Below are positions 6,953 through 61,664 of a DNA stretch of 64,000 nucleotides, piece after piece (positions within the stretch are counted from its first letter, which is position 1; each line of letters starts with the position of its first letter). The translations under genes were made by a program, and so were the position numbers. The stretch lies in assembly GCA_024235695.1 (NCBI GenBank), contig JACKLX010000020.1, forward strand, positions 1 through 64,000, read 5' to 3'. Origin of the DNA: Accumulibacter sp. (GTDB taxonomy: Bacteria; Pseudomonadota; Gammaproteobacteria; Burkholderiales; Rhodocyclaceae). The notes under the pieces are model-generated. The model did not search any database and was not told the origin of the DNA. It saw nothing but the letters and a program-made list of their open reading frames with translations.

Positions 6953-7019
6953 GCGCGGTTCGTCGGAAGCAGCGCGCATGCTAACAGATGCTGGCGCAGC
7001 CAGCGCGGCCAGCGGCCGA

Positions 7020-43299: not shown

Positions 43300-43367
43300 A
43301 TCTTATTCAGACAGGCCCGATTTGAAAATGCCCGCCGAGGAGTATTCGGACTACCGGCTTTCGGGTA
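43300..43367 (-). promoter_or_regulatory. Tandem NarL-type dyad promoter 1 (drives the hypothetical pair leftward)
   Basis: Read on the minus strand: distal dyad TACC-N8-GGTA (43352-43367), four bases, proximal dyad GAATAC-N10-GCATTT (43326-43347), -35 TTTTCA (43323-43328) overlapping the proximal dyad by three bases, a 17-base spacer and -10 TAAGAT (43300-43305). The dyads are 23 bp apart. The distal-facing proximal half-site TACTCCT fits the NarL heptamer TACYYMT exactly. The predicted leader to the ATG at 43164 is about 130 bases. Confidence 0.7.
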
Positions 43368-43400
43368 AGCCGGGTGTTGGCTGCCGATGGCGGCAGCCGG

Positions 43401-44045
43401 TCAGGGTATTACCAGCCCGGTGCGAACTGCGTAGCGGGTCAATTCCACGACGTTATGCAGTTCCAGCTTGCGCATCAGGTTGCGCCGATGTACATCCACC
43501 GTGCTCGGTGCAATATGCAACTCGGCGGCGATGTCGGGCGCGCTCTTGCCTTCGGCCAGCAGCGTCGCCACCTGCACTTCGCGTCGCGACAGGACGCGGC
43601 TATCGGCCTGCCCTGCTGCGCCACCCCGCTCGCGCAGGCCGTCTGCGATCAGGGCGGCCACCTCGGAGCACAGATAGCTGCGCCCGGCCACCACGTTGCG
43701 TATGCCCTGCTTCAACTCGGCGCCGGCAGCCGATTTCGCGATATAGCCGCTGGCGCCGATATCGAGCATCTGCTGGATGATGCGTCGGTCGAGATAGGTG
43801 GACAAGGCCAGCACCTTGATTTCGGGCCGCCGGGCAAGCAGGCGCCGCGTGGTTTCGATGCCCGACAGGCCGGGCATGGCGACATCCATCACCACCACCG
43901 CGGGCGACAGTTCCCCGGCCAGGCGTAACGCCGTCTCGCCATCGCCGACTGCCGCCACCACTTCGATCCCATCGTCCTGCTCGAGGACGGTGCGCAGGGC
44001 GTCGCGCACCATCCTATGGTCATCGACAAGCATTATTCGGATCAT
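43401..44045 (-). CDS. NarL/LuxR-type response regulator
   Basis: 214 residues. Receiver domain with VDDH at 7-10, phospho-acceptor Asp54 in VVMDVAMPG and Lys104-region IAKSAAG. The C-terminal LuxR/GerE helix-turn-helix (about 148-210) has LSRREVQVATLLAEGKSAPDIAAELHIAPSTVDVHRRNLMRKL. It pairs with the HisKA_3 kinase encoded immediately upstream (26-base overlap). As the only NarL-type DNA-binding regulator in the island, it is the natural candidate to bind the TAC-N10-GTA dyads found before five island operons. Confidence 0.94.
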   Translation of the reverse strand: MIRIMLVDDHRMVRDALRTVLEQDDGIEVVAAVGDGETALRLAGELSPAVVVMDVAMPGLSGIETTRRLLARRPEIKVLALSTYLDRRIIQQMLDIGASGYIAKSAAGAELKQGIRNVVAGRSYLCSEVAALIADGLRERGGAAGQADSRVLSRREVQVATLLAEGKSAPDIAAELHIAPSTVDVHRRNLMRKLELHNVVELTRYAVRTGLVIP

Positions 44046-46077
44046 CGCAGATCTCCTTTCCGTTCAAGATGCGGGGCACGCTGACGGTAACCGTGGTGCC
44101 ATTGCCGGGGCTGCTGTCGACTTCGATTTCGCCGCCGAGATTGGTGATCCGTTCATAGATCGAGCGCAGGCCGAAGCTATGGTGCCCGCACCATTCGCCG
44201 AAGTGTTCGGCCGGATCGAAGCCGCAGCCCGCATCGCTCACCACGATCACCAGGCGGGCACCGTCGCAGACGCAGGTCAGGCTGGCATTGTTCACCCCGG
44301 CATGCTTGGCGACGTTGATCAGCAGTTCCCGCGCCGAGCGGTAGAGTACCGCCTGAATTTCATCGCCCAGGCGCTTGCCGCAGGGATCGAAATCGACATG
44401 CACCGCCAGGCCGTAAACCCGCTGCATTTCGTCGCCCAGCCATTCCAGAGCGGCTGCCAGGCCCAGCCTCTGCAGGACCGGCGGACTCAGTTGCGCGGTA
44501 ATGTCGCGCGCCGCGCGGTCGGCCTGCTCCACCAGGTCCACCACCTGTGCGATCTCGGCCGGTTGCGTGGCGCCGGGCAGCGAGGTCAGCTTGATCTTGA
44601 TCACGGCCAGCAACTGGCCGAGGTTGTCGTGCAGGTCCTCCGCCAGCATGCGTCGCTCGCGCTCTTCGGTCATGGTCAACTGGGCAGAGAGTCTGCGCAC
44701 CTGCGTGGTACGTTCGAGAACCTTGGCTTCCAGGCTCGCGGCCAGTTCGACCAGCTTCTCCTCGGCCTGCCGGCGCCGGGTGATATCCACCATGATCCCG
44801 CGCAGCCAGCGCGGCGCACCCTTCTCCTCAATCACCGTAACGACGTCGTGCAGCCAGACCGTGCGTCCGTCGTCCGCGATGAAGCGATATTCGAAGTCGT
44901 GGGCTGCCAGGTCCCGCGTGCCGGACTGGCGATATTCCGGCGCCCACTCCCTGTCGAGCGGGTGCAGGTGTTGCGTCCAGAAACCCGGCTGCAGCCACTC
45001 GGCGATCGGGTAGCCCAGCAGACGCTCCGCCTGCCTGCTGACGAAGGTGAAGTCGAAGGTCAGCGCGTCGGCTTCCCAGACGATGCCGTCGGTGGTGTTG
45101 ACGATGTCGCGGATGTGTTGCCGGGCCTTCTCGAGAGACTCTTCCGTCCGCCTCTGCAGGGTGACATCGCGATCGACGCCGCGGTAACCCACCAGCCTTC
45201 CCGCCGCATCGCGGATCGGTGTGCCGCTGCTCAGCGTGTCATGCTGACCGCCTGCCGAGTCGACGACGATGTTGTACAGGTCGCGAAAGGATTCCTCGCG
45301 CCCGACGATGCCTGCAAAGGCCTCGCCCACGCGCAGCGCTTCGTCGGGAGGCATCAGGTCAAAGGCCGTCTTGCCGATGATTCCGTCCGGCGCATAGCCG
45401 AGCAGCGCCCGCACGCTCTCCGAAGCGTAGGTATAGCGTCCTTCGGTATCCACTTCCCAGATCCAGTCCGCGGATATGTCGGCCACGTCGCGAAAGCGCC
45501 GCTCGGAGTCACGCAGGGCGCGCTCCACCAATTTTTGCGCCGTGACATCGACCACCACGGCACGGCAGTCCTGCAGGTCGGGGGAGAGCGTTGCGCTGAT
45601 CCGCACCATCCGCGACACGCCGTCGATCGCCAGTTCGAGGTCGCTATCCTGCCCTGGTTGACCCGCAAAGGCGGCCTTCAGGAAGTCGCCAAAAGCCGCT
45701 CGCGAAGCCTCGGCCACGAAGACGGCGAATCGGCAGCCGATCAGCCGGCCGCGCTCCAGTCCGAGCAGTCGTGCGCCGGCCAGGTTGACCCGGGAAATCG
45801 CGCCGTCGCGCCCGAGGGTGAAAAAGCCGACCGGCGAAAAGTCATAGAAATCGGCAAAATGTTCCATCGCCGCTTCCACCTCGGCGCGCACCTGGCGCAG
45901 CTCCTCGTTCTGCAACTCCAGCTCGATCTGGTGCACCTCCAGCTCATGCAGCAGGCGCTCCCTGTCCTCCGCCGCGACCGGGGACGCGCCGTCCGGCGTC
46001 GCGGTTTGCAGCAGTGCCTCGGCGCGCCGGCGCAGTGGCGCGGTGTCACCGTCGTCGCGGGGTGCAGGCGTTTTCAC
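44020..46077 (-). CDS. PAS-domain sensor histidine kinase (HisKA_3/NarX-UhpB class)
   Basis: 685 residues without obvious membrane helices, so probably cytosolic. An N-terminal coiled coil (ELEVHQIELELQNEELRQVRAEVE) is followed by three PAS/PAC units (roughly 70-190, 190-320 and 320-450). The HisKA_3 phospho-acceptor is EDLHDNLGQLLAVIKIKL near 535, and the HATPase_c domain has NVAKHAGVNNA (N box), VSDAGCGFDP (G1) and GLRSIYERITNLGG (G2). PAS domains could sense redox state, oxygen or a ligand, but no haem motif is certain. Its ATG overlaps the CheB/CheR gene by four bases. Confidence 0.92.
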   Translation of the reverse strand: MKTPAPRDDGDTAPLRRRAEALLQTATPDGASPVAAEDRERLLHELEVHQIELELQNEELRQVRAEVEAAMEHFADFYDFSPVGFFTLGRDGAISRVNLAGARLLGLERGRLIGCRFAVFVAEASRAAFGDFLKAAFAGQPGQDSDLELAIDGVSRMVRISATLSPDLQDCRAVVVDVTAQKLVERALRDSERRFRDVADISADWIWEVDTEGRYTYASESVRALLGYAPDGIIGKTAFDLMPPDEALRVGEAFAGIVGREESFRDLYNIVVDSAGGQHDTLSSGTPIRDAAGRLVGYRGVDRDVTLQRRTEESLEKARQHIRDIVNTTDGIVWEADALTFDFTFVSRQAERLLGYPIAEWLQPGFWTQHLHPLDREWAPEYRQSGTRDLAAHDFEYRFIADDGRTVWLHDVVTVIEEKGAPRWLRGIMVDITRRRQAEEKLVELAASLEAKVLERTTQVRRLSAQLTMTEERERRMLAEDLHDNLGQLLAVIKIKLTSLPGATQPAEIAQVVDLVEQADRAARDITAQLSPPVLQRLGLAAALEWLGDEMQRVYGLAVHVDFDPCGKRLGDEIQAVLYRSARELLINVAKHAGVNNASLTCVCDGARLVIVVSDAGCGFDPAEHFGEWCGHHSFGLRSIYERITNLGGEIEVDSSPGNGTTVTVSVPRILNGKEICDDPNNACR

Positions 46078-48851
46078 GGGCTGCGCCGCCGCAGCGTCGC
46101 CAGCGCCTCGCTGCCCGCCTGCGCCGCGCCTGTCAGTTGCGCGATGCGCTGTTCGAGCACCGCCTGTGCCTCGCGCAAGACGGCCTCCACAGAGCGCGCG
46201 TCGTCGAGTTGCGCGCCCTGTTCGCTGACGCGGCCCTGCATCACGGCCAGCGCCTCGCGCAGCGTCGCTTCCAGCGTCTTGGCCGTGCTGATATCGACAA
46301 ACGTGATCACCACGCCATCGATGCGGTTGGCCTGGGTGCGGTAGGGCATGATGCGCACCGTGAACCAGCGGCCGTCGCGCGCGGCGACCTGCCGCTCGCG
46401 AAACACCAGCGAGCGCAGCACCGCGCGCGCATCGTCCGCCAGCGCCGGGTAGTCCAGTTCGGTGGCGAGGTCGGTCACGGGCCTGCCGGCGTCGCCGGGA
46501 ATCAGCCTGATGATGCTGGCGGTCTGGGTGGTGAAGCGCCGCACCTTGAGCTGGTCGTCGAGGAACAGCGTGGCGATGTCGGTGCTGTTGAGCAGGTTCT
46601 TCATGTCGTCGCTGGACTGCGACAGTTCGTCCACCTTGGCCGTCAGCTCGTGGTTGACCGTCTGCAGTTCCTCGTTCATCGACTGCATCTCTTCCTTCGA
46701 CGTGGTCAACTCCTCGTTGGTGCTTTGCAATTCCTCGTTGGTGCTCTGCAATTCCTCGTTGGCTGACTTGAGCTCCTCCTGCGAGGTCTGCATTTCTTCG
46801 CGGGTGGTCTGCAGTTCCTCAGAGGCCTGCTGCACCTGCTGCGCCAACTCGGCCAGGCACGACTGCTCGGCGCTGGCTCGCACCGCCTTGCCCGGCGCCT
46901 TGACTGCCGGCGCCGCGCCGACGTCAATGAACACCACCAGCACCATGCCGCGCAGTACCGCCGGCTCGGCCAGCGCATGGATGGTGACACTCACGTGCTG
47001 GCTGTCACCATTGTTGTCGAGCACGAGATCCTTCATCGTGACCGCCGTTTTCTCGCGCACGGCCTTGGCGAATGCACCATTGATGGGGCCGGCCAGGCCT
47101 TCGCGGGCCATGGCGAACAGGTTCAGGTTGGCCTTGCCGATCGCCGGCTCGAGATATTTTCCGGTCCTGCCGCTGATATACACCAGGTCGCCCTTGTCGG
47201 TGGTCAGCACTGCGGCCGGCGCATAACACCGCAGCAGCAGCGCCTCGATCTCGGCCTGCAGGCTGGCGGCGGGACTGGCCGGCGGCGGCGTCAGCGCGGG
47301 CAAGGAAACCGCCACATCGGCGCGGCCGCGGGCATGGCCGATGGGAAATTCGACGGGCGTCATGCGCGGCGAATCGTCCCGGCGCCGGTAGATCCGGTTC
47401 TTGCCCGGCAGCGCGGCAAACAGGTCGGTCGCCGCGCCGATGGTTTCGGACCCGCCCAGCAGCAGCGTGCCGCCGGGGTTGAGGCTGTAGTGGAACAGCG
47501 GCAGCAGCTTCTTCTGCAGGTCGGCATCGAGGTAGATCAGCAGGTTGCGGCAGGAAAGCAGGTCGAGCTTGGTAAACGGCGGATCCATGACCAGGTTCTG
47601 CTGGGCAAAGATCACCATTTCGCGGATTTCTTTATTGAGCTTGTAACCGCGTTCCTCCTGCACGAAGAAGCGGCGCAGTCGCTCATCCGTTACATCGGCC
47701 GCGATGTTGGCGGGATAGGCAGCGGTACGGGCATTTTCGATGGCGTCCTGGTCGAGGTCGGTGGCGAATATCTGCAGCGAATACAAGGCCGCGGGCTTCA
47801 GCCGCTCCAGCGCTTCGCGAAAGACGATGGCCAGCGAATAGGCCTCCTCGCCGGTCGAGCAGGCCGGCACCCAGGCGCGCAGCATGCCGCCGTCGGGATG
47901 GGCGGCCAGCAGGGCCGGGACGACCTCGCCGCCGACCTGCGCCCAGAGCGGCGGATCGCGGAAGAAACGGGTGACGCCGATCAGGAGTTCCTTGAACAGC
48001 AGGCCCGCCTCCTGCGGATTTTCCCGCAGATAGCGCACGTAGTCGGCAATGCGCGGCAACTGGTGCAGGCCCATGCGCCGCTCGATGCGACGGTAGATGG
48101 TGCTCTTCTTGTAAAGCGAGAAATCGTGGCCGGTCTGCGCGCGCAGGATCAACACGACCTTTTCCAGGCCGCTCTGGTTCTTGTCGTCGAGTTCGTTCGC
48201 GGGCCGCGCGACCAGCAGCGGCACGTGCTGCAAATAGGACGCGATTCGGCCGGCGAGTTCCTCCGCCGGCGCAACGACGTCGGCCAACCCGGCATCCTTG
48301 GCGCTGCGCGGCATGCCGTCGAACTTGGCCGTCGCCGGGGTCTGGACGAAGACCGCGCCCGCCATTTCTTTGATCGCGCGCAAACCCAGCGTGCCGTCCG
48401 AGCCCATGCCGGAAAGGATCACGCCGACGCTGTGCTCCTGCTGGTCGGCGGCCAGAGAACGGAAGAAATAGTCGATGGGCAGGCGCAGGCCGCGTGGCGC
48501 CGCCGGTTCGAGCAGGTGCAGCACGCCGTGCAGGATCGACAGGTCGCGGTTGGGTGGGATCAGGTAGACATGATCCGGCTCGACCTTCATGCGGTCCCTG
48601 ATCTGTTCCACCGGCATCGGGGTGGCTCTTTGCAGAAGTTCGGCCATGACACCCTTGTGGGTCGGATCAAGGTGCTGGACCACAACGAAGGCCATGCCGC
48701 TGGCGGCCGGCACGTGTCTGAAGAAGAGTTCCAGCGCCTCCAGCCCGCCGGCCGAGGCGCCGATGCCGACGATCGTGAATGCAGCGCCGGGCGCCGGCAA
48801 TGCTGCGGCCGGATTGGCGGAAACGTTCCTGGTCGACTTCCTGGCTACCAT
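46074..48851 (-). CDS. CheB-CheR-coiled coil-PAS fusion protein
   Basis: About 925 residues. An N-terminal CheB methylesterase domain (GIGASAGGLEALELFF near 30, VVVQHLDPTHKG, VILSGMGSDGTLGLRAIKEMAG) is followed by a CheR methyltransferase (about 210-480, with WVPACSTGEEAYSLAIVFREAL and FDLLSCRNLLIYLD-like segment) and a PAS-like region. A long heptad coiled coil of repeated NEELQSTNEEL units leads to a final PAS (about 780-880) and coiled coil. Such fusions act in signalling rather than in classical chemotaxis arrays. No Tar-type receptors are nearby, so it probably feeds the adjacent kinase. The ATG at 48851 follows AAGGA. Confidence 0.92.
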   Translation of the reverse strand: MVARKSTRNVSANPAAALPAPGAAFTIVGIGASAGGLEALELFFRHVPAASGMAFVVVQHLDPTHKGVMAELLQRATPMPVEQIRDRMKVEPDHVYLIPPNRDLSILHGVLHLLEPAAPRGLRLPIDYFFRSLAADQQEHSVGVILSGMGSDGTLGLRAIKEMAGAVFVQTPATAKFDGMPRSAKDAGLADVVAPAEELAGRIASYLQHVPLLVARPANELDDKNQSGLEKVVLILRAQTGHDFSLYKKSTIYRRIERRMGLHQLPRIADYVRYLRENPQEAGLLFKELLIGVTRFFRDPPLWAQVGGEVVPALLAAHPDGGMLRAWVPACSTGEEAYSLAIVFREALERLKPAALYSLQIFATDLDQDAIENARTAAYPANIAADVTDERLRRFFVQEERGYKLNKEIREMVIFAQQNLVMDPPFTKLDLLSCRNLLIYLDADLQKKLLPLFHYSLNPGGTLLLGGSETIGAATDLFAALPGKNRIYRRRDDSPRMTPVEFPIGHARGRADVAVSLPALTPPPASPAASLQAEIEALLLRCYAPAAVLTTDKGDLVYISGRTGKYLEPAIGKANLNLFAMAREGLAGPINGAFAKAVREKTAVTMKDLVLDNNGDSQHVSVTIHALAEPAVLRGMVLVVFIDVGAAPAVKAPGKAVRASAEQSCLAELAQQVQQASEELQTTREEMQTSQEELKSANEELQSTNEELQSTNEELTTSKEEMQSMNEELQTVNHELTAKVDELSQSSDDMKNLLNSTDIATLFLDDQLKVRRFTTQTASIIRLIPGDAGRPVTDLATELDYPALADDARAVLRSLVFRERQVAARDGRWFTVRIMPYRTQANRIDGVVITFVDISTAKTLEATLREALAVMQGRVSEQGAQLDDARSVEAVLREAQAVLEQRIAQLTGAAQAGSEALATLRRRSP

Positions 48852-48990
48852 GGTCTTCCTTTTTCCTGGCGGCACGATCGCAGAAATTGTAGCGCGGCCG
48901 GCAACCGCAATCTGGTTACCCGAACTGTGTATCCACTATACCGCCGCATTGCCGCGGCTGAAGTAATCCGCGGCATCGCCCGGCGCTGAA

Positions 48991-49057
48991 TACCGTGAAG
49001 TCATTAGCCTGAATACCCCGCGTTTGGTATTTACAGTCCTGCTGCAATACCTAAACT
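48991..49057 (+). promoter_or_regulatory. Tandem NarL-type dyad promoter 2 (drives BCAM0308-like, amrS rightward)
   Basis: Distal dyad TACC-N8-ATTA (48991-49006; right half degenerate), four bases, proximal dyad GAATAC-N10-GTATTT (49011-49032), -35 TTTACA (49030-49035) overlapping by three, a 16-base spacer and -10 TAAACT (49052-49057). Dyad starts are 23 bp apart. The transcript would begin near 49064, 80 bases before the ATG at 49144. The rest of the 292-base divergent gap (48852-49143) shows no gene; I found no equally good site facing the CheB/CheR gene. Confidence 0.7.
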
Positions 49058-49143
49058 CGGACTCGTTGGAAACGGCTCTTGACGATGCGTCGACATCGTG
49101 AGCCATGGTCCGCCGAGGACTCCCCGAGCAAAGGAAATCCGCC

Positions 49144-49644
49144 ATGAACAGCAGAACCATCCCCCCCGGCTTTCACCCGGTCCGGCATGATCGCCTGTTG
49201 CTGGAACAGACCCACGACGCCTATCGGCTCAAGGGCAAGCTGCCGGAACCCACGGTCTGCCCGCAATGCGGCGCGGTATTTCACAACGGGCGCTGGGCAT
49301 GGGACGACGCGCCAGCGCAGGCGCATCACGAAACCTGCCCCGCCTGCCATCGCCTGAATGACAAGTTCCCCGCCGGCTTCGTCAGCCTGGGCGGGGAATT
49401 CTTCGCCGCCCACCGCGACGAGATCCTGGCTCTGATACGCCACGAGGAGCAGCGCGAGCGGCAGGATCATCCGCTCAAGCGCCTGATGGCGATCGAGGAC
49501 GATGGCGGCGGCGTGATGGTCACCACCAGCGACGTGCATCTGGCGCGTGCTATCGGCGAGGCCGTCCATCGCGCCTACCAGGGTGAACTCGAGTTCCACT
49601 ACAAGCCGGACGACAAGCTGCTGCGCGTGCATTGGACCCGCTGA
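49144..49644 (+). CDS. BCAM0308-family zinc-ribbon-like protein
   Basis: 166 residues. Two CxxC pairs (CPQC near 38-41 and CPAC near 63-66) flank FHNGRWAWDD and suggest a zinc ribbon, followed by an alpha/beta C-terminal half (LKRLMAIEDDGGGVMVTTSDVHLARAIGEAVHRAYQGELEF) that could bind RNA or a metal. The sequence resembles the conserved BCAM0308 protein of the Burkholderia low-oxygen-activated locus; biochemical role unknown. AAAGGA precedes the ATG. It is followed by amrS after 31 bases. Confidence 0.7.
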   Translation: MNSRTIPPGFHPVRHDRLLLEQTHDAYRLKGKLPEPTVCPQCGAVFHNGRWAWDDAPAQAHHETCPACHRLNDKFPAGFVSLGGEFFAAHRDEILALIRHEEQRERQDHPLKRLMAIEDDGGGVMVTTSDVHLARAIGEAVHRAYQGELEFHYKPDDKLLRVHWTR

Positions 49645-49675
49645 AAGCTCCCGACGAAAAGGAGGCTTGTTTCTG

Positions 49676-50781
<1,106 letters not shown>

Positions 50782-50788
<7 letters not shown>

Positions 50789-50949
50789 ACAAACCGGCGG
50801 TCCGCCGCGCCGTTGCCCTGCTGCTGATCGTGCTCGGCGCCCTTGTGATCTTTTTCGCAACCGAGACATGGGCGGGCATGGCGCTGGTGGCGCTCGGCGT
50901 CTCGCTTGAAATAATCGGCATCGCGCTGCGCCATCGCGAACCCCCGTGA
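50782..50949 (+). CDS. Small two-helix membrane protein
   Basis: 55 residues beginning MLNKPAVRR, with two hydrophobic segments (about 10-27 and 30-47) and a short charged tail RHREPP. The ATG lies inside the last codons of amrS (7-base overlap), so translation is probably coupled. No family recognised. Its conserved-looking position right after amrS suggests a membrane role in the same stress response. Confidence 0.6.
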
Positions 50950-51010
50950 ATGGCGAATCAGAATCCCTTCCTCGATTCCGCTTGAAGTGAGCTTGGCGTC
51001 TGCCGCGGGG

Positions 51011-51250: not shown

Positions 51251-51275
51251 GTCATCTCCCAATTGGTCGACCTCC

Positions 51276-53005
51276 TCATCGCCGCACCTGTGCCAGCAGT
51301 CGCCGCAGCTCTGGCAGCGGCCGCGTGTTGAGCACGTCCGCCGCCGCCAGCCAGCCGCGCCGCGCCTGGCCGATGCCCAGGCGCAGGTGGACGAAGTCGT
51401 CGCGGCTGTGTGCGTCCGAGTTGATGGCGACCAGCACGCCCTCCTCCTTCGCCATGATGCAGTGGCTGTCGAGCAGGTCGAGCCGTTCGGGGTGGGCATT
51501 CAGTTCAAGGAAGCAGCCGCGCCGGCGCGCATGGCGGATCACGCGCAGCATGTCGACGTCGTAGGGCGCACGGCTATCGATGACGCGGCCGGTGGGATGC
51601 GCCAGGAGCGTGAAGCAGGGGTTGTCCATGGCGCGCAGAATGCGCTCGGTCTGCCTGGCGCGCGGCAGGTCGAAACGGCTGTGCACGGCGCCGATGACGA
51701 GATCGAGCCGCGCCAGCGAGGCATCGGGCAGGTCGAGGCTGCCGTCCTCGAGGACGTCCACCTCGATGCCCTTCAACAGCACGATGCCTTCGAGGTTCTG
51801 GTTCAGGCGGTCGATTGCGTCGCATTGCTCGGCCAGCCGGCGCGGATCGAGGCCGTGGGCCATGGCCAGGCGCCGCGAGTGCTCGGTGATGGCGAGGTAG
51901 GACAAGCCCAGCACCTTCGCCGCCAGCGCCATCTGCGCCAGCGTATGGTGGCCGTCGGTGGCCGTGGTGTGGACGTGCAAGTCGCCGCGCAGGTCGGCCA
52001 GGTCCACCAGCTGCGGCAAGCGGCCGGCCCGCGCGGCGGTAATCTCGCCGCGGTCCTCGCGCAGTTCGGGGGCGATGAAGGGCAGGCCCAGCGCGGCATA
52101 GACGGATGTCTCGTCGGCGCCGGCGATCCGCTCGCGGCCGCGGAAGACGCCATATTCGTTGAGCTTGAGGCCGCGTTCCTGCGCCAGGCGGCGCAGCGTG
52201 ATGTTGTGTGTCTTCGAGCCGGTGAAGTAGCACAGCGCGGCGCCGTAAGATGCCTCATCGACCACGCGCAGATCCACCTGCAGCCCGCTCTTCAGCACCA
52301 CGCTGGCGCGCGTCGGCCCCTGCGAGAGCACCTCGGCCACCGCATCGTAGGCGACGAAGCGGGCCTTGACCGGACTGTCGTCTGCGGCAACGACCAGGAT
52401 GTCGAGATCGCCGACCGTCTCACGGCAGCGGCGGTAACTTCCCGCCACCTCGACCCGCGGCTGACGCCGTGGGCGGCGGAAAGCCAGGCTACCAGCGAGC
52501 CGGCATACTGCGCCGCGGTCGCCAGCTTGATACGCCGCGCCTTGGACAGATGGGCCTCGATGGCCTGCAGGATGTTGGCCTCCGTCTTCGCACCGAAGCC
52601 GGGCAGATCGCGGATGAGGCCGTCGCGGGCGGCGCGCGCCACTTGCTCCGGCGTCTGCACATCGAGTTCATGCCAGAGCATGCGCACCCGCTTCGGGCCG
52701 AGGCCCGGCATGTGCAGCAGTTCGGTGATCGCCGGCGGCAACTCGGCTTGCAGCTTTTTCAGGGCCCGGCAGCTTCCCGTGGCGACGATTTCGCGCATCT
52801 TTGCCGCCAGGTCGTCGCCGATGCCCGGCAGCTCCGTCAGATCCTCGCCCAGCGTGACCATGGCACGCACTTCTCTAGCCATTGCGGCCACTATGCGTGC
52901 GGCATTGCGGTAGGCCCGGATGCGGAAGGGATTGGCCTGCTGAATGTCGAGCAGGTCGGCGATCTCCTCGAAAACCGCTGCAATGTCCGCGTTGTGGATC
53001 GGCAT
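51276..53005 (-). pseudogene. polX: DNA polymerase/3'-5' exonuclease PolX, interrupted by a one-base frameshift
   Basis: Two frames together make a complete PolX of about 575 residues. The first (53005 to about 52458) has the helix-hairpin-helix domain: FEEIADLLDIQQANPFRIRAYRNAAR, LPGIGDDLAAKMREI and MPGLGPKRVRMLW. The second (about 52460 to 51276) has the nucleotidyltransferase GSYRRCRETVGDLDILVV and the PHP domain GDLHVHTTATDGHHTL with AITEHSRR and INSDAH. The join occurs near 52453-52459 in a C/G run; restoring one base gives the expected HGVSRRVEVAGSYRR. Base-excision repair polymerase. True inactivation or a consensus error cannot be told apart. Confidence 0.85.
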
Positions 53006-53017
53006 GTCGGCCGCGGA

Positions 53018-54430
53018 TCAGAACACGCGGAAATTGCAGAACTGCCACGGATCGTCCCGAACGAGCTGTTCCGGGAAGAAGTCCTGGCGCTCCTTGAGCG
53101 GCGTCCAGTCGGAATAGACGCCGACCACATCGCCCAGATAGGGGCGGCAGAATGCAAGGAACTCATCGAAGGGCAATTCGTCCGGATCGACAATGCCGCG
53201 CCGCGGATTGCGCATGGCCCACACCACCCCCGCCACCACGCCGACGGCAACCTGCAAGGTCGTTGCCGAATTGTATGGGGCGAGCCTGCGCGCCGACTCG
53301 GTCGACAGCCGCGATCCAAGCCAGTAGGCACCGCGCGGATGCCCCATCAGCAACACACCGAGCTCATCGACGCCTTCAGCTTCCTCACGGATGATGCGCT
53401 TGCTGTCCTGGTGTCGCCATTCCCGTGCCGCAAGCTCGTGCAGGGACAGTACGGCGTCGTCGCAGGGATGGTAGGCGTAGTGGCAGGTGGGACGGTATTC
53501 CGGCTGTATTCCAGCACCCACCGTCAAATAGTCGGCGATCGATATGGCTTCGCCATGGGTGATCAGGAAAGCATGCATGGGCTCGGCGAGAGGCGTCCAG
53601 CTGCGCACCCGTGTCGCCGCACCAGGCCGTTCCAGGTAGATGGCCGCCTCGCAGCCATAGCCGTGACGGCGAGCGTCGCTCGGGAAATGCCGCTCGTGGC
53701 TGCCCCAGCCCAGTTCGGCCGGCTGCGAGCCTTCGCCGATGAAGCCATCGACGGACCAGGTATTGACGAACTCGCCCACTCGCTTTCTGGAGTCGGCCAA
53801 CTGCCAGTCACGCTCGGCAATTTGGATGACCCTGACGTTCAGCGACCGGGCCAGTCGCCCCCAGCCGGCCCGGTCGGCCGGCGCCCCTGCGGCGCGACCG
53901 CCGTCGCGGGCGATGTCGAGCAGGGCCTGTTTGACCAGATGCGACACCCAGCCGGGATTGGCGCCGTGCGTCAGCACCGCCGTCGGCGCGCCCGCCACGC
54001 GCAGGGCACGGGCGGCCTCGCGCAAGCCGTAGTTCGAGCGGGCCGAGGCCGTCATCGCCGGATCGGTGTAGCCTCCTTGCCACGGCTCGATGCATGCATC
54101 GAGATAAAGAACACCCCGCTCCCGACAATAGCGGATGAGCTCGACGCTGGCGACATTGATGGCCAGGTTGAGAAGAAAATCGCCCGCTCCGAGCAGGCCA
54201 TCCAGGATCCGGCGGTAGTTTTCCGGCACCAGCGGCGTGACCTGATGGTGCACACCGTAACTTCCGGCCTCGTCGCTGCCGCTTTCATCGGCCGTGACGA
54301 TGGTCAATTGCTGCGGCGCGATCGCGATATGGCGCAACAGGAGCGGCAGCACGCCCTGCCCGATGGCGCCGAAGCCGACCATCACCATTCGACCGCGAAA
54401 CTCGAACGCTTGCTGGTAACCGTCGACCAT
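53018..54430 (-). CDS. Homospermidine synthase
   Basis: 470 residues of the bacterial homospermidine synthase/saccharopine reductase fold. N-terminal MVMVGFGAIGQGVLPLLLRH (Rossmann, about 15-34), LNLAINVASVELIRYCRERGVLYLDACIEPW near 95-125, LTHGANPGWVSHLVKQAL near 160 and NTWSVDGFIGEGSQPAELGWGSHE near 235. It makes homospermidine from two putrescines, or from putrescine plus spermidine, using NAD+. The start at 54430 is one base after the nicotinamidase-like gene stop; polX follows after 12 bases. Polyamines stabilise nucleic acids, consistent with the stress context. Confidence 0.9.
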   Translation of the reverse strand: MVDGYQQAFEFRGRMVMVGFGAIGQGVLPLLLRHIAIAPQQLTIVTADESGSDEAGSYGVHHQVTPLVPENYRRILDGLLGAGDFLLNLAINVASVELIRYCRERGVLYLDACIEPWQGGYTDPAMTASARSNYGLREAARALRVAGAPTAVLTHGANPGWVSHLVKQALLDIARDGGRAAGAPADRAGWGRLARSLNVRVIQIAERDWQLADSRKRVGEFVNTWSVDGFIGEGSQPAELGWGSHERHFPSDARRHGYGCEAAIYLERPGAATRVRSWTPLAEPMHAFLITHGEAISIADYLTVGAGIQPEYRPTCHYAYHPCDDAVLSLHELAAREWRHQDSKRIIREEAEGVDELGVLLMGHPRGAYWLGSRLSTESARRLAPYNSATTLQVAVGVVAGVVWAMRNPRRGIVDPDELPFDEFLAFCRPYLGDVVGVYSDWTPLKERQDFFPEQLVRDDPWQFCNFRVF

Positions 54431-54431
54431 C

Positions 54432-55238
54432 TCAGGCTCGCTGCCAGTCGATTTGCCGCGCCATTTGGCGCAGCGGTGCAGCCACGTCGACGGCATAGGC
54501 AAGCACGTCGTCGGTGCTGCGCAAGGCCGGCGGCAGCGCCGCCACCGCATGCTCGTCGAGGGTGGCGCGCACGCGCCGCGCATGGTCGCGGAGATCGCCG
54601 CTGTCGATACGCACCGTCTGGATCCCGTTGCCGTCCGCGCGCAGCCGCTGCATCACCGGAATCAGCGCGGCCGCCGCCGACTCGGTATCGTCGGTATCGA
54701 TCAGCAGAGTGGTGGCAGCGCGATGCGGGCGGGCGAAATGTTCGAAGGCGCGCATGACATCCGCCAGCACCACCACGGCGTAGCGCAGTCGCCGTGCATC
54801 CAGCACCGACTGCAGCACGCAGCAATCGGTGGCCAGCCCGCCGACGAACAGCCTGCGAACTCCTGCCTCCTGCAGTCGACGATGCAGGTCGGTGCCGGAG
54901 AACCCCGAGTAGGCCTCGGCATCGCGGCCGGTGGCCTTGGCCGCGCCGACGACGCCGGCGGGCAATTCCAGGTCGTCGGCAAAGGCGGCGCCGTGAGTGC
55001 CGGCGATGCAGTGCGCCGGCCACGGTCCGCCTTGTTCGCGTAACGACCAGTGGTCCGCGGGATGCCAGTCGAAGGTGGCGAAGATCGGCAATCCCTCGGC
55101 CGTGAAGCGGAAAATCCAGCTGTTGAGCGGGGCCACTACCGCATCGCCATCCAGCACGGCAAGACTGCCGCCCGCCGTGAAATCGCGTTGAACGCCGGGG
55201 ATCTGCAGCGCATCACCGGCTTGCAATCGTGGACTCAT
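54432..55238 (-). CDS. Nicotinamidase-like protein fused to a nicotinate phosphoribosyltransferase fragment; catalytic Asp lost
   Basis: 268 residues. Residues 1-165 follow nicotinamidase (PncA): VQRDFTAGGSLAVLDGDAVV, metal site DWHPADHW near 57-64, Lys101 and nucleophile Cys140 in GGLATDCCVLQ. But the catalytic Asp of the VDVQ motif is Gly15 (PGVQRDF). From about 172, TTLLIDTDDTESAAA and IQTVRIDSGDLRDHARRV match an internal part of nicotinate phosphoribosyltransferase (PncB), then the protein ends. It looks like a deletion joining neighbouring pncA and pncB genes. Nicotinamidase activity is doubtful, and the PncB part is far too short to work. Confidence 0.75.
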   Translation of the reverse strand: MSPRLQAGDALQIPGVQRDFTAGGSLAVLDGDAVVAPLNSWIFRFTAEGLPIFATFDWHPADHWSLREQGGPWPAHCIAGTHGAAFADDLELPAGVVGAAKATGRDAEAYSGFSGTDLHRRLQEAGVRRLFVGGLATDCCVLQSVLDARRLRYAVVVLADVMRAFEHFARPHRAATTLLIDTDDTESAAAALIPVMQRLRADGNGIQTVRIDSGDLRDHARRVRATLDEHAVAALPPALRSTDDVLAYAVDVAAPLRQMARQIDWQRA

Positions 55239-55265
55239 GATCGTCGGCCACGGGCTGTTGCCCGA

Positions 55266-55742
55266 TCAACGCTGCCGCTGGTAGTAGCCGACCAGTTCGG
55301 CGCGAGCCAGGACATGCCCTTGCATGGCCTGCTCCAGGCGTTCCTTGGTCGGCGGCTTCAGTTCGGGCAACAGGACATCCAGGGCAAATAGCTTATGCAC
55401 GTAGCGATGCCTGCCTACGGGCGGACAGGGCCCGCCGTACCCGGTACGCTGCCAGTCATTGAGCCCTTGCCGGGTTCCCGGCGGCAGACTCCCGGCCTTG
55501 ACGCCCTCGTCCAGGCCCGTGGCGCAGGCAGGAAGGTTGTAGAGAACCCAGTGCACCCAGGTCATGGTCGGCGCCGCAGGATTCGGAGCGTCCGGATCAT
55601 CGACGATCAGGGCGAGACTTTGCGTCCCGGCAGGCAGTCCTGCCCATGCTAGTTGCGGCGAGATGTCGGCGCCGTCGCAGGTATGACGCGGGGGAATAAT
55701 GCCGCCGGCCGCGAATGATGCCGAGCCAAACGTAAAGGGCAT
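55266..55742 (-). CDS. YbhB/YbcL-type Raf kinase inhibitor-like (PEBP) protein
   Basis: 158 residues of phosphatidylethanolamine-binding protein fold: IPPRHTCDGADISPQLAWAGLP near 16-37, LALIVDDPDAPNP near 43-55, TWVHWVLYNLP near 60 and YGGPCPPVGRHRYVHKLFALD near 102-122. The DPDAP and GPCPP motifs line the ligand pocket. Bacterial function unknown. The ATG at 55742 has AAAGGGAGG upstream; an open frame to a TTG at 55838 would add a weak signal-like segment. First gene of a leftward operon with nicotinamidase-like, homospermidine synthase and polX genes, behind tandem-dyad promoter 3. Confidence 0.88.
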   Translation of the reverse strand: MPFTFGSASFAAGGIIPPRHTCDGADISPQLAWAGLPAGTQSLALIVDDPDAPNPAAPTMTWVHWVLYNLPACATGLDEGVKAGSLPPGTRQGLNDWQRTGYGGPCPPVGRHRYVHKLFALDVLLPELKPPTKERLEQAMQGHVLARAELVGYYQRQR

Positions 55743-55962
55743 GAAGCCTCCCTTTCCTCGATCGAGGTGGCTGTCGGCAGCGACTGCGATCGCAGCGGCA
55801 GGCAGCACACTCAACAGTCCAGTGTAAGAAACGACCAAGAGATCTTCCCGGCTCCGGCGGGTTCATGACTCGGACTCCCCTCCTGACGATCCCTTCGGGT
55901 CCGGCATGATCAACCTCGCTCGGCCAGACCCGGATTCCGCATGACTCCGGGCGCCACAGCCC

Positions 55963-56030
55963 AGCTTAGGGAGGCCGGGCAAGCATGCAAATACCCGAGC
56001 AGGAGTATTTGGAGTACCTGTAATCAGGTA
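55963..56030 (-). promoter_or_regulatory. Tandem NarL-type dyad promoter 3 (drives the ybhB-like/nicotinamidase/polX operon leftward)
   Basis: Minus-strand order: distal dyad TACC-N8-GGTA (56015-56030, part of an 8-4-8 perfect inverted repeat at 56013-56032), four bases, proximal dyad AAATAC-N10-GTATTT (55989-56010), -35 TTTGCA (55986-55991) overlapping by three, a 17-base spacer and -10 TAAGCT (55963-55968). Dyad starts are 23 bp apart. One proximal half-site, TACTCCT, fits the NarL heptamer TACYYMT exactly. Confidence 0.72.
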
Positions 56031-56096
56031 CTTCATTCATGAGAACCCGGAACCCTGCGCGATGTTGTCGGTATTGTGGCCTGCCTTCCCTGGCGC

Positions 56097-56164
56097 TACC
56101 TATACACGGGTATCGACAATACGGAATTCACGGTATATCCGCGATGCATGGGAATGACTATTGT
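56097..56164 (+). promoter_or_regulatory. Tandem NarL-type dyad promoter 4 (drives cfa/reductase/hsp20 rightward)
   Basis: Distal dyad TACC-N8-GGTA (56097-56112), four bases, proximal dyad CAATAC-N10-GTATAT (56117-56138), a poor -35 TATCCG (56136-56141) overlapping by three, a 17-base spacer and -10 TATTGT (56159-56164). Dyad starts are 23 bp apart. The predicted start near 56171 leaves an 88-base leader before the cfa ATG at 56259. Confidence 0.68.
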
Positions 56165-56258
56165 TGCAGCGTGTGCACTTCGGTGGCCTGCCGGTTCGTG
56201 CCAGGCGGGAATCCATCGTTGCGAGGGGCAAGCCGCAGCAAACGGACGGGGCAGGCAA

Positions 56259-57539
56259 ATGGGTCAGCAGCAAACCAATCCGGCGAGTAATCCGGTCAGC
56301 GGGCAATCCGGCGACGAACGGGCCATCGTTCGTCCGGCGCGGCCCGCCCTGGACGCTGCGGTGTCGGCACTGGCGGCTGTTCTGCTGAAGCGGGTGCTCG
56401 AATCGATAGGCAACCCGGGGCTCCGGTTCGTGCTGTGGAACGGGGACGAAATTCCCCGCCACAGGGATGCGAAATCGGGGCGCATCCTGATTCATGACAT
56501 GGCTGCCCTGCTCAGGCTGGTAGCCAATCCGGCCATGAATTTCGGTGAAATGTATGCGTCGCGTCGCATCGACGTTCAAGGTGACCTCCCGGAACTGCTT
56601 GAACAGGTCTATCGCGCCCTGCCCAGAGAAGACGGCGTCACCGACAAGCGTTTGCGGCTCGGCGCCTGGCTCGATGCACAGCGCCACTCGCTGCGGCAGG
56701 CGCGCAACAACATCCGTCATCACTATGATTTCGGAAACGATTTCTACAAGCTTTGGCTCGATCGGGAAATGATCTATACCTGCGCCTATTTCCCGGCGCC
56801 GGCCATCGACCTGGAAAGCGCTCAGCGGGCAAAAATGCAGCATATCTGCCGCAAGCTGCGCCTGAAGCCCGGCGAGAAGGTCATCGAGGCCGGCTGCGGC
56901 TGGGGCGCCATGGCGCTGCACATGGCGCGGCAGCACGGGGTGTCGGTGCAGGCCTACAACATTTCGCGCGAACAGATTTCCTTTGCGCGGGAGCGCGCCC
57001 GGCAGGAGGGCTTCGGCGCCCAGGTCGAGTTCATCGAGGACGATTACCGCAACGCGCGTGGCAAGTTCGATGCCTTCGTCTCCGTCGGCATGCTGGAGCA
57101 CGTGGGGCCCGAACGCTACGAGGAACTCGGCCACCTGATTGACGGAGTGCTGGCGGATCACGGACGCGGCCTGATCCATTCCATCGGGCGCGACTACCCG
57201 CAAGCCCTGAATGCATGGACCGAACGCCGTATCTTTCCTGCGGCCTGTCCGCCCAGCCTGTCGCAGATGATGAACATCTTCGAACCCTGCGGCTTTTCCG
57301 TTCTCGACGTGGAAAATCTGCGCCTGCACTATGCCAAGACGCTGGAACACTGGCTGCAACGCTTCGAGGCCAACGCCGCGGCGGTCGAAGCCATGTTCGA
57401 TCCGACCGTGGCGCGTACCTGGCGGCTGTATCTCGCCGGCTCGCTCGCCGCCTTCAGGGCCGGCAACATGCAGTTGTTCCAGGTGCTGTTCGCCCGCTCG
57501 CGCGACAACCGGATCCCCTGGACCCGGGATGCCCCCTGA
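56259..57539 (+). CDS. cfa: Cyclopropane-fatty-acyl-phospholipid synthase
   Basis: 426 residues. An N-terminal lipid-binding region (about 30-150) precedes the methyltransferase domain: NNIRHHYDFGNDFYKLWLD near 150-168, MIYTCAYF, the SAM-binding VIEAGCGWGAMALHMA near 209-224, YNISREQISFARERA and VSVGMLEHVGPERYEE near 275. It methylenates unsaturated acyl chains of membrane phospholipids using SAM, a stationary-phase and stress membrane change. The ATG at 56259 is chosen because it starts the conserved protein; the frame extends upstream through the promoter. Eight bases separate it from the reductase gene. Confidence 0.93.
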   Translation: MGQQQTNPASNPVSGQSGDERAIVRPARPALDAAVSALAAVLLKRVLESIGNPGLRFVLWNGDEIPRHRDAKSGRILIHDMAALLRLVANPAMNFGEMYASRRIDVQGDLPELLEQVYRALPREDGVTDKRLRLGAWLDAQRHSLRQARNNIRHHYDFGNDFYKLWLDREMIYTCAYFPAPAIDLESAQRAKMQHICRKLRLKPGEKVIEAGCGWGAMALHMARQHGVSVQAYNISREQISFARERARQEGFGAQVEFIEDDYRNARGKFDAFVSVGMLEHVGPERYEELGHLIDGVLADHGRGLIHSIGRDYPQALNAWTERRIFPAACPPSLSQMMNIFEPCGFSVLDVENLRLHYAKTLEHWLQRFEANAAAVEAMFDPTVARTWRLYLAGSLAAFRAGNMQLFQVLFARSRDNRIPWTRDAP

Positions 57540-57547
57540 AGACCACC

Positions 57548-58666
57548 ATGGAAACCTGTGACGCGCTGATCATTGGCGGTGGCCCGGCGGGTTCTTCCTG
57601 CGCCCGGCAACTGCGCCGTCATGGCCTGGACGTGATGGTAATGGACCAGGCGGAATTCCCCCGCGACAAGGTGTGCGCCGGCTGGATCACGCCGGCCGTG
57701 CTGCGCACCCTGGAAATCGATCCGCGCGCGTATGCGCGGCAACACACCCTGCAGCCCATCCGGGCCTTCCGCACTGGCCTGATCGACGACCGGCCGCTGA
57801 CCAGCAGATATCCGGACACGATCAGCTACGGCATTCGCCGCAGTGAGTTCGACGACTACCTGCTGAAGCGCACGGATGCCCGCCTCGCCCTCGGACAGCC
57901 GATGGAATCCCTGCGCCGGGAAGGCAGCCGCTGGGTGATCAACGATGCCGTCAGGACGCCACTGCTGATCGGCGCCGGCGGGCACTTTTGCCCGGTCGCC
58001 CGCCACCTCGGCGCAAGAGTCGGCGGCGGCGACACGGCGGTGGTGGCGAAGGAGGTCGAGTTCGAGATGGACGCGGGACAAATCGCCGCCTGCGAGGTCA
58101 AGCCGGAGATGCCGGAACTCTACTTCTGCGAGGACCTCTCGGGCTACGGCTGGTGCATACGCAAGGGCCGGTTTCTGAATATCGGTCTGGGCATGGAACG
58201 GGCCCAGGGACTGAACCGTGCACTCGCACGCTTGTGCCGCTTCCTCGAACAGAGCGGCCGCATCCCGCCGGATATTCCGGACCGGTTTCGTGGCCATGCC
58301 TATCTGCTCTACGGACGATCGGATCGCAAACTGCTGGACGACGGCGTGCTGCTGCTCGGCGATGCGGCAGGAGTGGCCTGCCCGCGCAGCGGCGAGGGAA
58401 TCCTGCCCGCCGTCGAATCGGGCCTGATGGCTGCAGCGACGGTGCTGCAGGCCGTCGGCGACTACCGCGGGGACCGGCTGGCTACCTATCGGGAGCGCTT
58501 GTCGGCACGTTACGGAGTCCCGCCTGGCGGCGCAGCGAACCGTGCAGCTGGAACTCTGCGTAAAGGCCTGGGACGCCTGTTGCTGCGCAGCCGCTGGCTG
58601 ACCCGCCATGTCGTGCTCGATCGCTGGTTTCTGCATGCCGGCCAGGCAGATTTGCAGGGCACATGA
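57548..58666 (+). CDS. FAD-dependent reductase of the geranylgeranyl reductase type
   Basis: 372 residues. N-terminal ALIIGGGPAGSSCARQLRRHG (6-26), the VCAGWITPAVL segment near 42 that resembles the conserved CGG-type region, FDDYLLKR near 102, and LLLGDAAGVACPRSGEGILPAVESG near 276-300. Members of this group reduce isoprenoid or other lipid double bonds, or act as uncharacterised oxidoreductases. Encoded eight bases after cfa, so it may also act on membrane lipids; its substrate is not known. The C-terminal LRSRWLTRHVVLDRWFLHAG is basic and could contact the membrane. Confidence 0.82.
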   Translation: METCDALIIGGGPAGSSCARQLRRHGLDVMVMDQAEFPRDKVCAGWITPAVLRTLEIDPRAYARQHTLQPIRAFRTGLIDDRPLTSRYPDTISYGIRRSEFDDYLLKRTDARLALGQPMESLRREGSRWVINDAVRTPLLIGAGGHFCPVARHLGARVGGGDTAVVAKEVEFEMDAGQIAACEVKPEMPELYFCEDLSGYGWCIRKGRFLNIGLGMERAQGLNRALARLCRFLEQSGRIPPDIPDRFRGHAYLLYGRSDRKLLDDGVLLLGDAAGVACPRSGEGILPAVESGLMAAATVLQAVGDYRGDRLATYRERLSARYGVPPGGAANRAAGTLRKGLGRLLLRSRWLTRHVVLDRWFLHAGQADLQGT

Positions 58667-58706
58667 AACATCGCCCAAAAAGGCATATCAATCAAGGAGA
58701 CTCATC

Positions 58707-59210
58707 ATGCTCGACAGATTGAAGCAGTCCGGAAGGAAGTTCGGACATGAAATCGGACGCGCCTGGGACACCCTGGCGGAAGGCTGGCGGGAAATGTTCA
58801 GCCGCAGCAGCGATGCCCTGACGCAGTTCATCCATGGCAAGGAGGAGCAGCATCCGAAGGGTTCGCTGCTGGCACCCTTCCCGCGCTGGAGCCTGTTGGC
58901 CGGAGAGGTGGAAGAGACCGACAAGGAAATCGTGGTGCGCCTCGAACTACCCGGCATGCAGAAGGAGGATTGCCAGATCGCGGTGGACGGCAACCTGCTC
59001 TACGTCAGCGGCGAGAAGCACGCCGAGCGCTCAAGCCATGAAAGCACCTACCACGTCATGGAACGTGCCTATGGCTCATTCCAGCGCACCATCGCCCTGC
59101 CGCGCAAGGTGTTCGCCGACAAGGCCAAGGCAAGCTTCAAGAACGGCGTGATGACGGTACGCCTGCCCAAGGCGAACGGAGAAAAGTCGCACGCCATCCC
59201 CGTGACCTGA
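58707..59210 (+). CDS. Hsp20-family small heat-shock protein
   Basis: 167 residues. The basic N-terminus (LKQSGRKFGHEIGRAWDTLAEGW) precedes an alpha-crystallin domain: VEETDKEIVVRLELPGMQKEDCQIAVDGN near 70-98, YGSFQRTIALPRKV near 122 and the closing strand FKNGVMTVRLPKA. It prevents aggregation without ATP and hands clients to DnaK/ClpB. AAGGAGA lies before the ATG. It follows the reductase gene by 40 bases and probably belongs to the cfa operon. Clearly different from the second Hsp20 in the island, so not a recent duplicate. Confidence 0.92.
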   Translation: MLDRLKQSGRKFGHEIGRAWDTLAEGWREMFSRSSDALTQFIHGKEEQHPKGSLLAPFPRWSLLAGEVEETDKEIVVRLELPGMQKEDCQIAVDGNLLYVSGEKHAERSSHESTYHVMERAYGSFQRTIALPRKVFADKAKASFKNGVMTVRLPKANGEKSHAIPVT

Positions 59211-59237
59211 CACCGCGGCAGGGGCGTCACGACGGCA

Positions 59238-60948: not shown

Positions 60949-61080
60949 GCGATGCCTTCAAATCCAGCCGACAGCCAGCCTTGACCGGCAAGGACCCAGC
61001 GGTGCGGACCACACCCGCTGCCCGCCCGGATCCTGCACGACGCAGGATTTCCCTTCCCGGAGCGAGCAAGGGACGGAAGT

Positions 61081-61527
61081 TCAGGAAACCGCGATCTGAG
61101 TCGCAGCCGAACCCTCCTTCTTCGGCAGCACGGCCTCCAGCACGCCGTCGGCGTACTTGGCGGAAGCGCCTGTCTGATCGACCTCCTTGTCGAGCATGAA
61201 GCTGCGTGACACCTGTCCGAAATAGCGTTCGCTGTGAACGACTTTCTTGCCTTCCTTCTTCTCGGTTTCCTTCTTCACTTCGGCGCTGATGGAAACCATA
61301 TTGCCGTCCACCGAAATGTGGATATCCTCCTTCTTGACGCCGGGAATGTCAGCCTTGATGGTGTAGGACTTGTCATCCTCGCTCACGTCGAGCTTCATCT
61401 TGGGAGCGGCAGTCGCGCCCTGGAATACCGGCCGCATGACGAAGCCCTTGAACATGTCGTCGAGATCGCCGAAGGGATCGCGACGGGTCATTTCGCTGAA
61501 TGGATCGAAACGGGTTATGTTGGCCAT
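61081..61527 (-). CDS. Hsp20-family small heat-shock protein (HspH/IbpA class A-like)
   Basis: 148 residues with the common start MANITRFDPFSEM, the alpha-crystallin domain (KLDVSEDDKSYTIKADIPGVKKEDIHISVDGN near 45-75), a Lys/Glu-rich loop ETEKKEGKKV, YFGQVSRSFMLDKEV near 103 and ADGVLEAVLPKKEG closing the domain. AAGGAG lies before the ATG at 61527. It is the first gene after tandem-dyad promoter 5 and probably the head of an hsp20-sufC-sufB transcript. Confidence 0.94.
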   Translation of the reverse strand: MANITRFDPFSEMTRRDPFGDLDDMFKGFVMRPVFQGATAAPKMKLDVSEDDKSYTIKADIPGVKKEDIHISVDGNMVSISAEVKKETEKKEGKKVVHSERYFGQVSRSFMLDKEVDQTGASAKYADGVLEAVLPKKEGSAATQIAVS

Positions 61528-61596
61528 GATGATTCTCCTTGTTAACGCAAAAAGAACTGAAGCCTTGCCCACCAAGCCGCTGGAGTCATGGCTGTT

Positions 61597-61664
61597 AAAA
61601 TATCCGGCACAGACCCTAATTGAAATACCGCCGTGGCCGTATCTTGGCTACGGGAAAGGCGGTA
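61597..61664 (-). promoter_or_regulatory. Tandem NarL-type dyad promoter 5 (drives hsp20-sufC-sufB leftward)
   Basis: Minus-strand order: distal dyad TACC-N8-CGTA (61649-61664), four bases, proximal dyad AGATAC-N10-GTATTT (61623-61644), -35 TTTCAA (61620-61625) overlapping by three, a 17-base spacer and -10 TATTTT (61597-61602). Dyad starts are 23 bp apart. The predicted leader to the ATG at 61527 is about 63 bases. I see no sigma-32 promoter here although the gene is an hsp20. Confidence 0.7.

Follow-up and report, generated by a model that had tools for sequence, protein, structure and literature searches.

Response regulators of the NarL family bind pairs of heptamers in a 7-2-7 inverted arrangement, TACYYMT-N2-AKRRGTA. 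One member, DosR (also DevR) of Mycobacterium, has an Hsp20 gene (hspX) among its targets. Here we describe a putative regulon of this kind in Accumulibacter sp., in which five promoters with tandem TAC-N10-GTA dyads appear to be served by a NarL-type response regulator encoded beside one of them. All lie within an island of 18 kilobases (kb) in a 64,000-nucleotide stretch (positions 1 to 64,000 of contig JACKLX010000020.1, assembly GCA_024235695.1), hereafter the window.

DevR binds cooperatively to closely packed sites, the proximal one overlapping the −35, and acts as an activator in the hypoxia response (PMC3029386). At the ogt promoter of Escherichia coli, 7-2-7 inverted repeats for NarL are placed at −44.5 and −77.5, 33 base pairs (bp) apart (PMC7419079). 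The lxa locus of Burkholderia cenocepacia is induced by low oxygen, is associated with anoxic survival and contains a heat-shock protein; its reports name FNR-family proteins as likely regulators and report FNR-like boxes (PMC4981469, PMC4505428), and the lxa table also lists the response regulators BCAM0288 and BCAM0322 and the sensor kinase BCAM0323.

The island resembles the DevR/DosR system in its NarL-family regulator and in closely packed paired sites with the proximal one at −35: the proximal dyad ends directly before a −35-like hexamer, and a −10-like hexamer follows at 22–23 nucleotides (nt). It differs in phylum and recognition sequence and in holding to nearly one fixed 23-bp register; moreover, the hypoxia response belongs to DevR/DosR and would be a prediction for the island. 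With ogt it shares tandem inverted repeats at one promoter, one of them abutting −35, but the spacing is 33 bp there and 23 bp here, and the inner bases differ. In length and outer bases the dyads fit the NarL 7-2-7 pattern, whereas the inner bases depart from it, the distal consensus being TACCGG-N4-CCGGTA. The BCAM0308 protein family and a heat-shock protein are common to the island and to lxa, but the FNR-like boxes reported there have no counterpart at the five promoters here (TTGAT-N4-ATCAA, at most two mismatches). Window-wide, 22 such boxes occur against 10 expected in shuffles, and upstream of 30 BCAM0308-family genes the best match had one mismatch in one case, two in two cases and three to four in the rest. 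With no box at the five promoters and none consistent upstream of the 30 genes, FNR control was rejected. Universal stress proteins, several of which occur in the lxa cluster, are absent from the 20 window proteins scanned with Pfam. The kind of system is already known (NarL family, DosR-like promoters); the regulon itself is apparently not yet described, and we did not find it in the literature searched, most subscription papers being outside the reach of that search.

Tandem dyads in the window and the assembly

We define a dyad as TAC-N10-GTA, a tandem pair as two dyads with left arms 23 bp apart (offset 23), and a near-perfect pair as one with 0–1 mismatch. The first-pass annotation of the window had claimed five tandem promoter sites with this register and a match at all six bases in eight of the ten dyads. 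All five sites are present, and our count agrees: the pairs at 55992/56015, 56097/56120 and 61626/61649 are perfect, and those at 43329/43352 and 48991/49014 have one mismatch each. The window holds nine perfect dyads, eight inside the five promoters and a solitary one at 40869, and its four TACC-N8-GGTA dyads all fall within the promoters. When up to three mismatches were allowed, 13 matches were found against 1.89 expected, a number reached in none of 100 shuffles. A scan of offsets 16–60 gave three perfect and five near-perfect pairs at offset 23, the only other near-perfect pair being one at offset 18.

The same annotation had proposed looking for the pattern elsewhere in the genome, where it proved not to be common. 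Across the assembly (3,834,642 bases; nearly all of the 64,054-base contig C20 is covered by the window), the pairs with 0–1 mismatch are exactly these five, all within the 18-kb island. At two mismatches nine further pairs appear, which we regard as background: with the reversed control pattern, 31 are found. As the assembly is 83.7% complete, further sites may be missing from view. Chance or base composition is excluded as the source of the pattern by the shuffles, by the control with the reversed pattern and by the scan of offsets. A two-mismatch match at 61603 was taken as chance.

Promoter geometry

A −10-like hexamer stands 22 nt past the proximal GTA in the case of the 48991 site and 23 nt past it at the other four. 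At four of the five sites a −35-like hexamer starting with TTT (TTTACA, TTTTCA and TTTGCA among them) directly follows the proximal GTA; at 56097 this place reads TATCCG. The −35 element had previously been drawn as overlapping the proximal dyad by three bases; since the −10 lies at 22–23 nt and the spacer measures 16–17 nt, it instead abuts the GTA. The transcription starts predicted earlier (43293, 49064, 55956, 56171 and 61590) agree with the −10-like hexamers found.

For a broader view we assembled 84 distinct sites with 0–1 mismatch from the window, related regulator loci (L numbers) and other genomes (G numbers), and scored a −10 as good if it had A at position 2 and T at position 6 and agreed with TATAAT at four or more positions. 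In 63 of the 84 sites a good −10 stood 22 or 23 nt away, on one side or both, against a mean of 1.9 and a maximum of 5 for control two-offset windows. By set, the fractions were 4/5 in the window, 19/20 in L011–L025, 18/28 in G137, 4/5 in G180 (5 of its 10 sites taken), 2/5 in G210 (5 of 11 taken) and 16/21 in G112, G247, G081, G127, G128, G205 and G269 together (21 of 35 taken). The 60 uniquely oriented sites yield a consensus near TACCGG-N4-CCGGTA-N5-AA-TAC-N10-GTA-T, in which the base after the last GTA, left free in the search, is T in all 60. With the −10 set at −12 to −7, the dyad centres fall near −43 (proximal) and −66 (distal). The proximal centre would thus occupy a class II position, as do the sites overlapping the −35 at DevR targets (PMC3029386), and lies close to the NarL site that ogt has at −44.5 (PMC7419079).

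The regulator and its neighbours

The proposed binder of the tandem sites is the NarL/FixJ-family response regulator encoded at 43401–44045 on the minus strand. It falls into the NarL/FixJ (LuxR-type) class by its Response_reg (PF00072, 90.6 bits) and GerE (PF00196, 71.4 bits) domains, both above cut-off, and the acidic pair, VVMDVAMPG and IAKS segments of the receiver are visible by eye in the translation. Against the NCBIfam NarL model it scores 122.9 bits, short of the cut-off of 250, and no model reaches its cut-off among the 25 of 91 matching NCBIfam models listed. Domain searches identify a histidine kinase with PAS, HisKA_3 and HATPase_c domains at 44020–46077 (minus strand), the likely partner kinase, and a CheB-CheR-PAS fusion protein at 46074–48875 (minus strand), a possible upstream signalling partner. 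A kinase homolog adjoins the regulator in most close loci, and a CheB-CheR-PAS homolog does so in L013, L014 and L016.

Co-occurrence of sites and regulator in relatives

From a collection scan we took the best 80 of 180 regulator loci, 15 with at least 69% identity to the island regulator and 65 with at most 54%. The close loci contain 21 offset-23 sites in 12 of the 15, bearing out the conservation near orthologous genes that the first-pass annotation had asked for, whereas none of the 65 distant loci has a near-perfect offset-23 pair. L021, one of the other three close loci, carries two perfect pairs at offset 21 (L021:1400 and L021:3979), one of which follows the regulator match by 46 nt, and these may represent a natural spacing variant of the operator. 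Pairs at offset 24 lie near the regulator in L029 and L030.

A family scan covered 249 genomes, with the regulator called at E ≤ 1e-45 in 58 and not in 191 on the basis of only 12 candidates scored per genome. Judged by their equal lengths, L016, L019 and L024 are apparently the same contigs as G028:C58, G166:C58 and G270:C35, so the locus and genome sets overlap. Family genomes with the regulator carry 2.6 sites on average and those without it 0.35; at least one site occurs in 41/58 and 55/191, respectively, and at least three in 19/58 and 1/191 (Fisher p 1.2e-12, or 4.7e-12 excluding the genome of the window, values that overstate independence because the genomes are related). The same contrast is seen at one target: among 30 BCAM0308-family loci, drawn from 42 genomes with a match and searched over 500 bases upstream with strands taken into account, the gene is preceded by a tandem site in 4 of 10 regulator-bearing genomes and in none of 20 without the regulator.

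The sites are also positioned relative to the regulator gene. In the window, 33 nt separate its stop codon from the tandem site. An offset-23 site follows the regulator match by 41–52 nt in 10 of the 15 close loci (L011–L014, L016–L019, L024 and L025). Across 44 loci, a set that excludes the window and counts two contigs twice, a tandem pair (offset 21–25, 0–1 mismatch) lies 13–156 nt behind the match in 23, 19 of them at offset 23. G094, G214, G238 and G277, with just one or two sites each, have one standing 33–35 nt behind the match. Outside the family, in two other families, a site is found behind the regulator gene in G545 (perfect, 49 nt) and G485 (one mismatch, 122 nt). The conserved site might have been a terminator for the regulator gene, a reading that we considered and rejected: such sites elsewhere lie upstream of genes, and the −10 keeps a fixed distance.

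In a tree of 54 regulators, whose outside rows were nine loci chosen from L032–L090 plus L026 and L096, all 34 regulators labelled tandem-bearing (24 because a site adjoins them, 10 from their locus or genome) fall within the 43 rows of one clade (support 92/81), and none of the 11 outside rows carries the label. Ortholog loci, co-occurrence in the 249 genomes, adjacency and shared promoter geometry all support the earlier proposal that the regulator at 43401–44045 uses the sites. Based on these observations, we regard the architecture as real and conserved; its presence follows that of one NarL-type regulator, for which it very probably serves as the operator.

Genes downstream of the five promoters

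Operon extents given here were inferred from gene order. The first promoter (43300–43367, minus strand; dyads 43329–43367; −10-like TAAGAT) points left, away from the regulator gene, to open reading frames (ORFs) at 43164–42700 and 42788–42495. These encode two small proteins (42700–43164 and 42495–42788, both minus strand) that matched no family in Pfam or NCBIfam; homologs stand behind the regulator in 8 and 10 of the 15 close loci, respectively.

The second promoter (48991–49057, plus strand; −35-like TTTACA, 16-nt spacer, −10-like TAAACT) precedes two plus-strand genes, for a BCAM0308-family protein (49105–49644, likely ATG near 49144; NF040826 lxa_BCAM0308, 218.2 bits, cut-off 100) and an AmmeMemoRadiSam-type radical SAM enzyme (49547–50788; TIGR04337, 611.3 bits, cut-off 220). 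A tandem site also lies 5' of the BCAM0308-family gene in L011, L012, L013, L020, L025, G228, G081 and G257. Sites of the 48991 type at L011:7308, L012:7316, L020:8109 and L025:7307 have −10-like hexamers on both sides, as has one site in L174; in the window the second side is weak. Such a two-sided site may additionally direct transcription towards the sensor and regulator genes, which would then be autoregulated. An ORF that appears PAS-like by eye likewise follows a tandem site in L011 and L024.

The third promoter (55963–56030, minus strand; dyads 55992–56030) leads into minus-strand genes for a PEBP-family protein (55266–55838; PF01161), an isochorismatase-family hydrolase (54432–55238; PF00857) and a saccharopine dehydrogenase-like protein (53018–54583; PF03435, PF16653). 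Beyond them, a PolX-type DNA polymerase/PHP gene (51276–53005) is split into an overlapping HHH frame and a palm/thumb/PHP frame, probably by a frameshift or an assembly error; in L018 the two parts are closely consecutive.

Facing the other way, the fourth promoter (56097–56164, plus strand; −10-like TATTGT) precedes plus-strand genes for a cyclopropane-fatty-acid-synthase-like methyltransferase (56259–57539; PF02353, 272.8 bits, translated from 56262), an FAD-dependent, geranylgeranyl-reductase-like reductase (57539–58666; TIGR02032, 143.7 bits, below the cut-off of 158.8) and an Hsp20-family small heat-shock protein (58701–59210; PF00011). In G137 a CMAS-family gene (L165) likewise lies downstream of a tandem site. 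The fifth promoter (61597–61664, minus strand; dyads 61626–61664; −10-like TATTTT) serves a second Hsp20-family small heat-shock protein (61081–61575, minus strand, likely ATG near 61527; PF00011). In L011, L014 and L017 an Hsp20 homolog is found 0.9–1.3 kb past the tandem site, not directly behind it.

Elsewhere in the window, at 14128–17594, a sensor kinase and a sigma-54-type regulator, seen as ORFs only, lie near exopolysaccharide-type genes and are presumably similar to the PEP-CTERM/XrtA system.

A larger set of sites in another genus

G137, from another genus, contains 28 tandem sites spread over many contigs, against none for the control pattern. One downstream protein was searched against Pfam at 20 of the 28 sites, the choice of ORF being uncertain at several. 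The families found were three phasins, Omp85, VIT1, a periplasmic binding protein, a TPR protein, a Crp-type regulator, a redoxin, DUF6627, the start of a molybdopterin oxidoreductase, cyclopropane synthase, cytochrome b561, two hybrid kinases, a lytic transglycosylase and cytochrome bd subunit I; 3 of the 20 proteins had no Pfam family. The storage-granule, respiration and membrane genes would fit a response to energy or oxygen limitation.

Origin of the island

A protein encoded at 5000–6979 of the contig, which we take to be DinG-like, is 90% identical to its counterpart in genus mate G011 and 66% to that in G028. This identity to a genus mate indicates that the contig is native to its genus, and misbinning was rejected. 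The regulator, by comparison, is 69–88% identical to orthologs in Sulfuritalea records and in genus g2, which contains them, and the 27 genus mates have no close ortholog (best match E 1.5e-41). The BCAM0308-family protein is 58–60% identical to those of four genus mates, 72% to that of G228 and 83% to that of L013. On the simplest reading, the island looks horizontally acquired and foreign to its genus; repeated loss among relatives may instead account for the distribution. At the contig end, an ORF at 63308–63988 presumably resembles an IS transposase, with Pfam giving only a sub-threshold match to another family, and may mark the island edge.

Proposed mechanism and alternatives

We propose that the island has a switch of its own. 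Its PAS histidine kinase (44020–46077), possibly with the CheB-CheR-PAS protein, would phosphorylate the regulator (43401–44045), two dimers of which would then bind side by side on the two repeats 23 bp apart. The proximal dimer, near −43 and abutting −35, would recruit sigma-70 RNA polymerase by class II activation, with the distal dimer near −66 stabilising it. Five operons would thereby be turned on, for protein repair by Hsp20, membrane modification by the cyclopropane synthase, redox functions, radical SAM chemistry and the two small proteins, the signal probably being oxygen or energy limitation. The proposal builds on observed features, namely the sites, their rarity and conservation, their co-occurrence with the regulator and the fixed distance to a −10-like element, and we hold it, with all its steps taken jointly, to be very likely the best explanation as a whole.

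Several observations weigh against it. The Propionivibrio orthologs in L022 and L023 (69–71% identity) have no such site. Among the 58 regulator-bearing family genomes, 17 have no site and 39 fewer than three, while 55 of the 191 without a regulator homolog have at least one; G173 has three tandem pairs and no regulator homolog at E ≤ 1e-40. Outside the family, the other 8 of 10 regulator-bearing genomes have no site behind the regulator gene. The tandem label needs seven changes on the tree, and two eligible regulators are unlabelled, L130 (from a genome with five sites) and L030 (with its offset-24 pair). At the promoters themselves, 21 of the 84 sites lack a good −10, and the −10-like TAAGCT of the third promoter is weak. 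The twelve-candidate regulator call, the relatedness of the genomes and the ten tree labels assigned by locus or genome count on the same side, as does the nature of the oxygen link. That link comes from gene content alone, the BCAM0308-family target, which owes its family name to lxa, and the cytochrome bd gene that follows a site in G137. It is only a lead because publications connect lxa with FNR-family regulators and the locus also includes response regulators and a kinase.

The sites could alternatively be bound by another NarL-family regulator, for example a nitrate regulator, with the neighbouring gene a bystander. The genome has 34 matches to the island regulator, and the dyads agree in length and in their outer bases with the NarL 7-2-7 half site (PMC7419079). 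However, the 27 genus mates each have 27–50 matching regulators and no close ortholog, and none of the eight that the family scan included has more than one tandem pair; across genera, moreover, the tandem pair lies directly behind the island-type regulator gene. We leave this reading a small chance. A DNA-binding role for the small proteins at 42495–43164, which close relatives retain next to the site, is exceedingly unlikely: at E ≤ 0.001, in a search that may miss diverged homologs of such short proteins, neither was found in G137, G180, G210, G112, G247, G081, G127, G128, G205, G269, G545 or G485, genomes that all carry tandem sites.

The regulator might also act as a repressor, its dimers beside the −35 blocking polymerase until a signal releases them. 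The proximal dyad does abut the −35, a position that repressors also use, but the −35 elements look weak and the −10 spacing is held at 22–23 nt, as for activators; DevR, a NarL-family regulator whose closely packed sites include a proximal one at −35, activates (PMC3029386). Repression is distinctly improbable on these grounds.

Implications

We lean towards a wider reading in three parts, taken together, which we consider somewhat likelier to be right than wrong: (i) an undescribed regulator family of the Rhodocyclaceae and their relatives would control survival regulons through a rigid tandem-operator promoter; (ii) it would act as a genome-wide switch in some genera, as in G137, and in the species of the window as a closed, horizontally acquired cassette that comprises the sensors, the regulator, every near-perfect operator and the target genes; and (iii) the tandem site retained just behind the regulator gene in many relatives, other families included, would provide the cassette with a further promoter, its second.

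If this is true, a group known from metagenomes of groundwater and freshwater would possess a DosR-like survival regulon whose operator is so strict that the sequence alone would suffice for predicting targets. There would also be a candidate regulator for the BCAM0308 family, for the AmmeMemoRadiSam enzyme and for the two small proteins, whose roles are obscure. A regulator that moves together with its promoters would also mean that foreign genes need no link into the network of their host.

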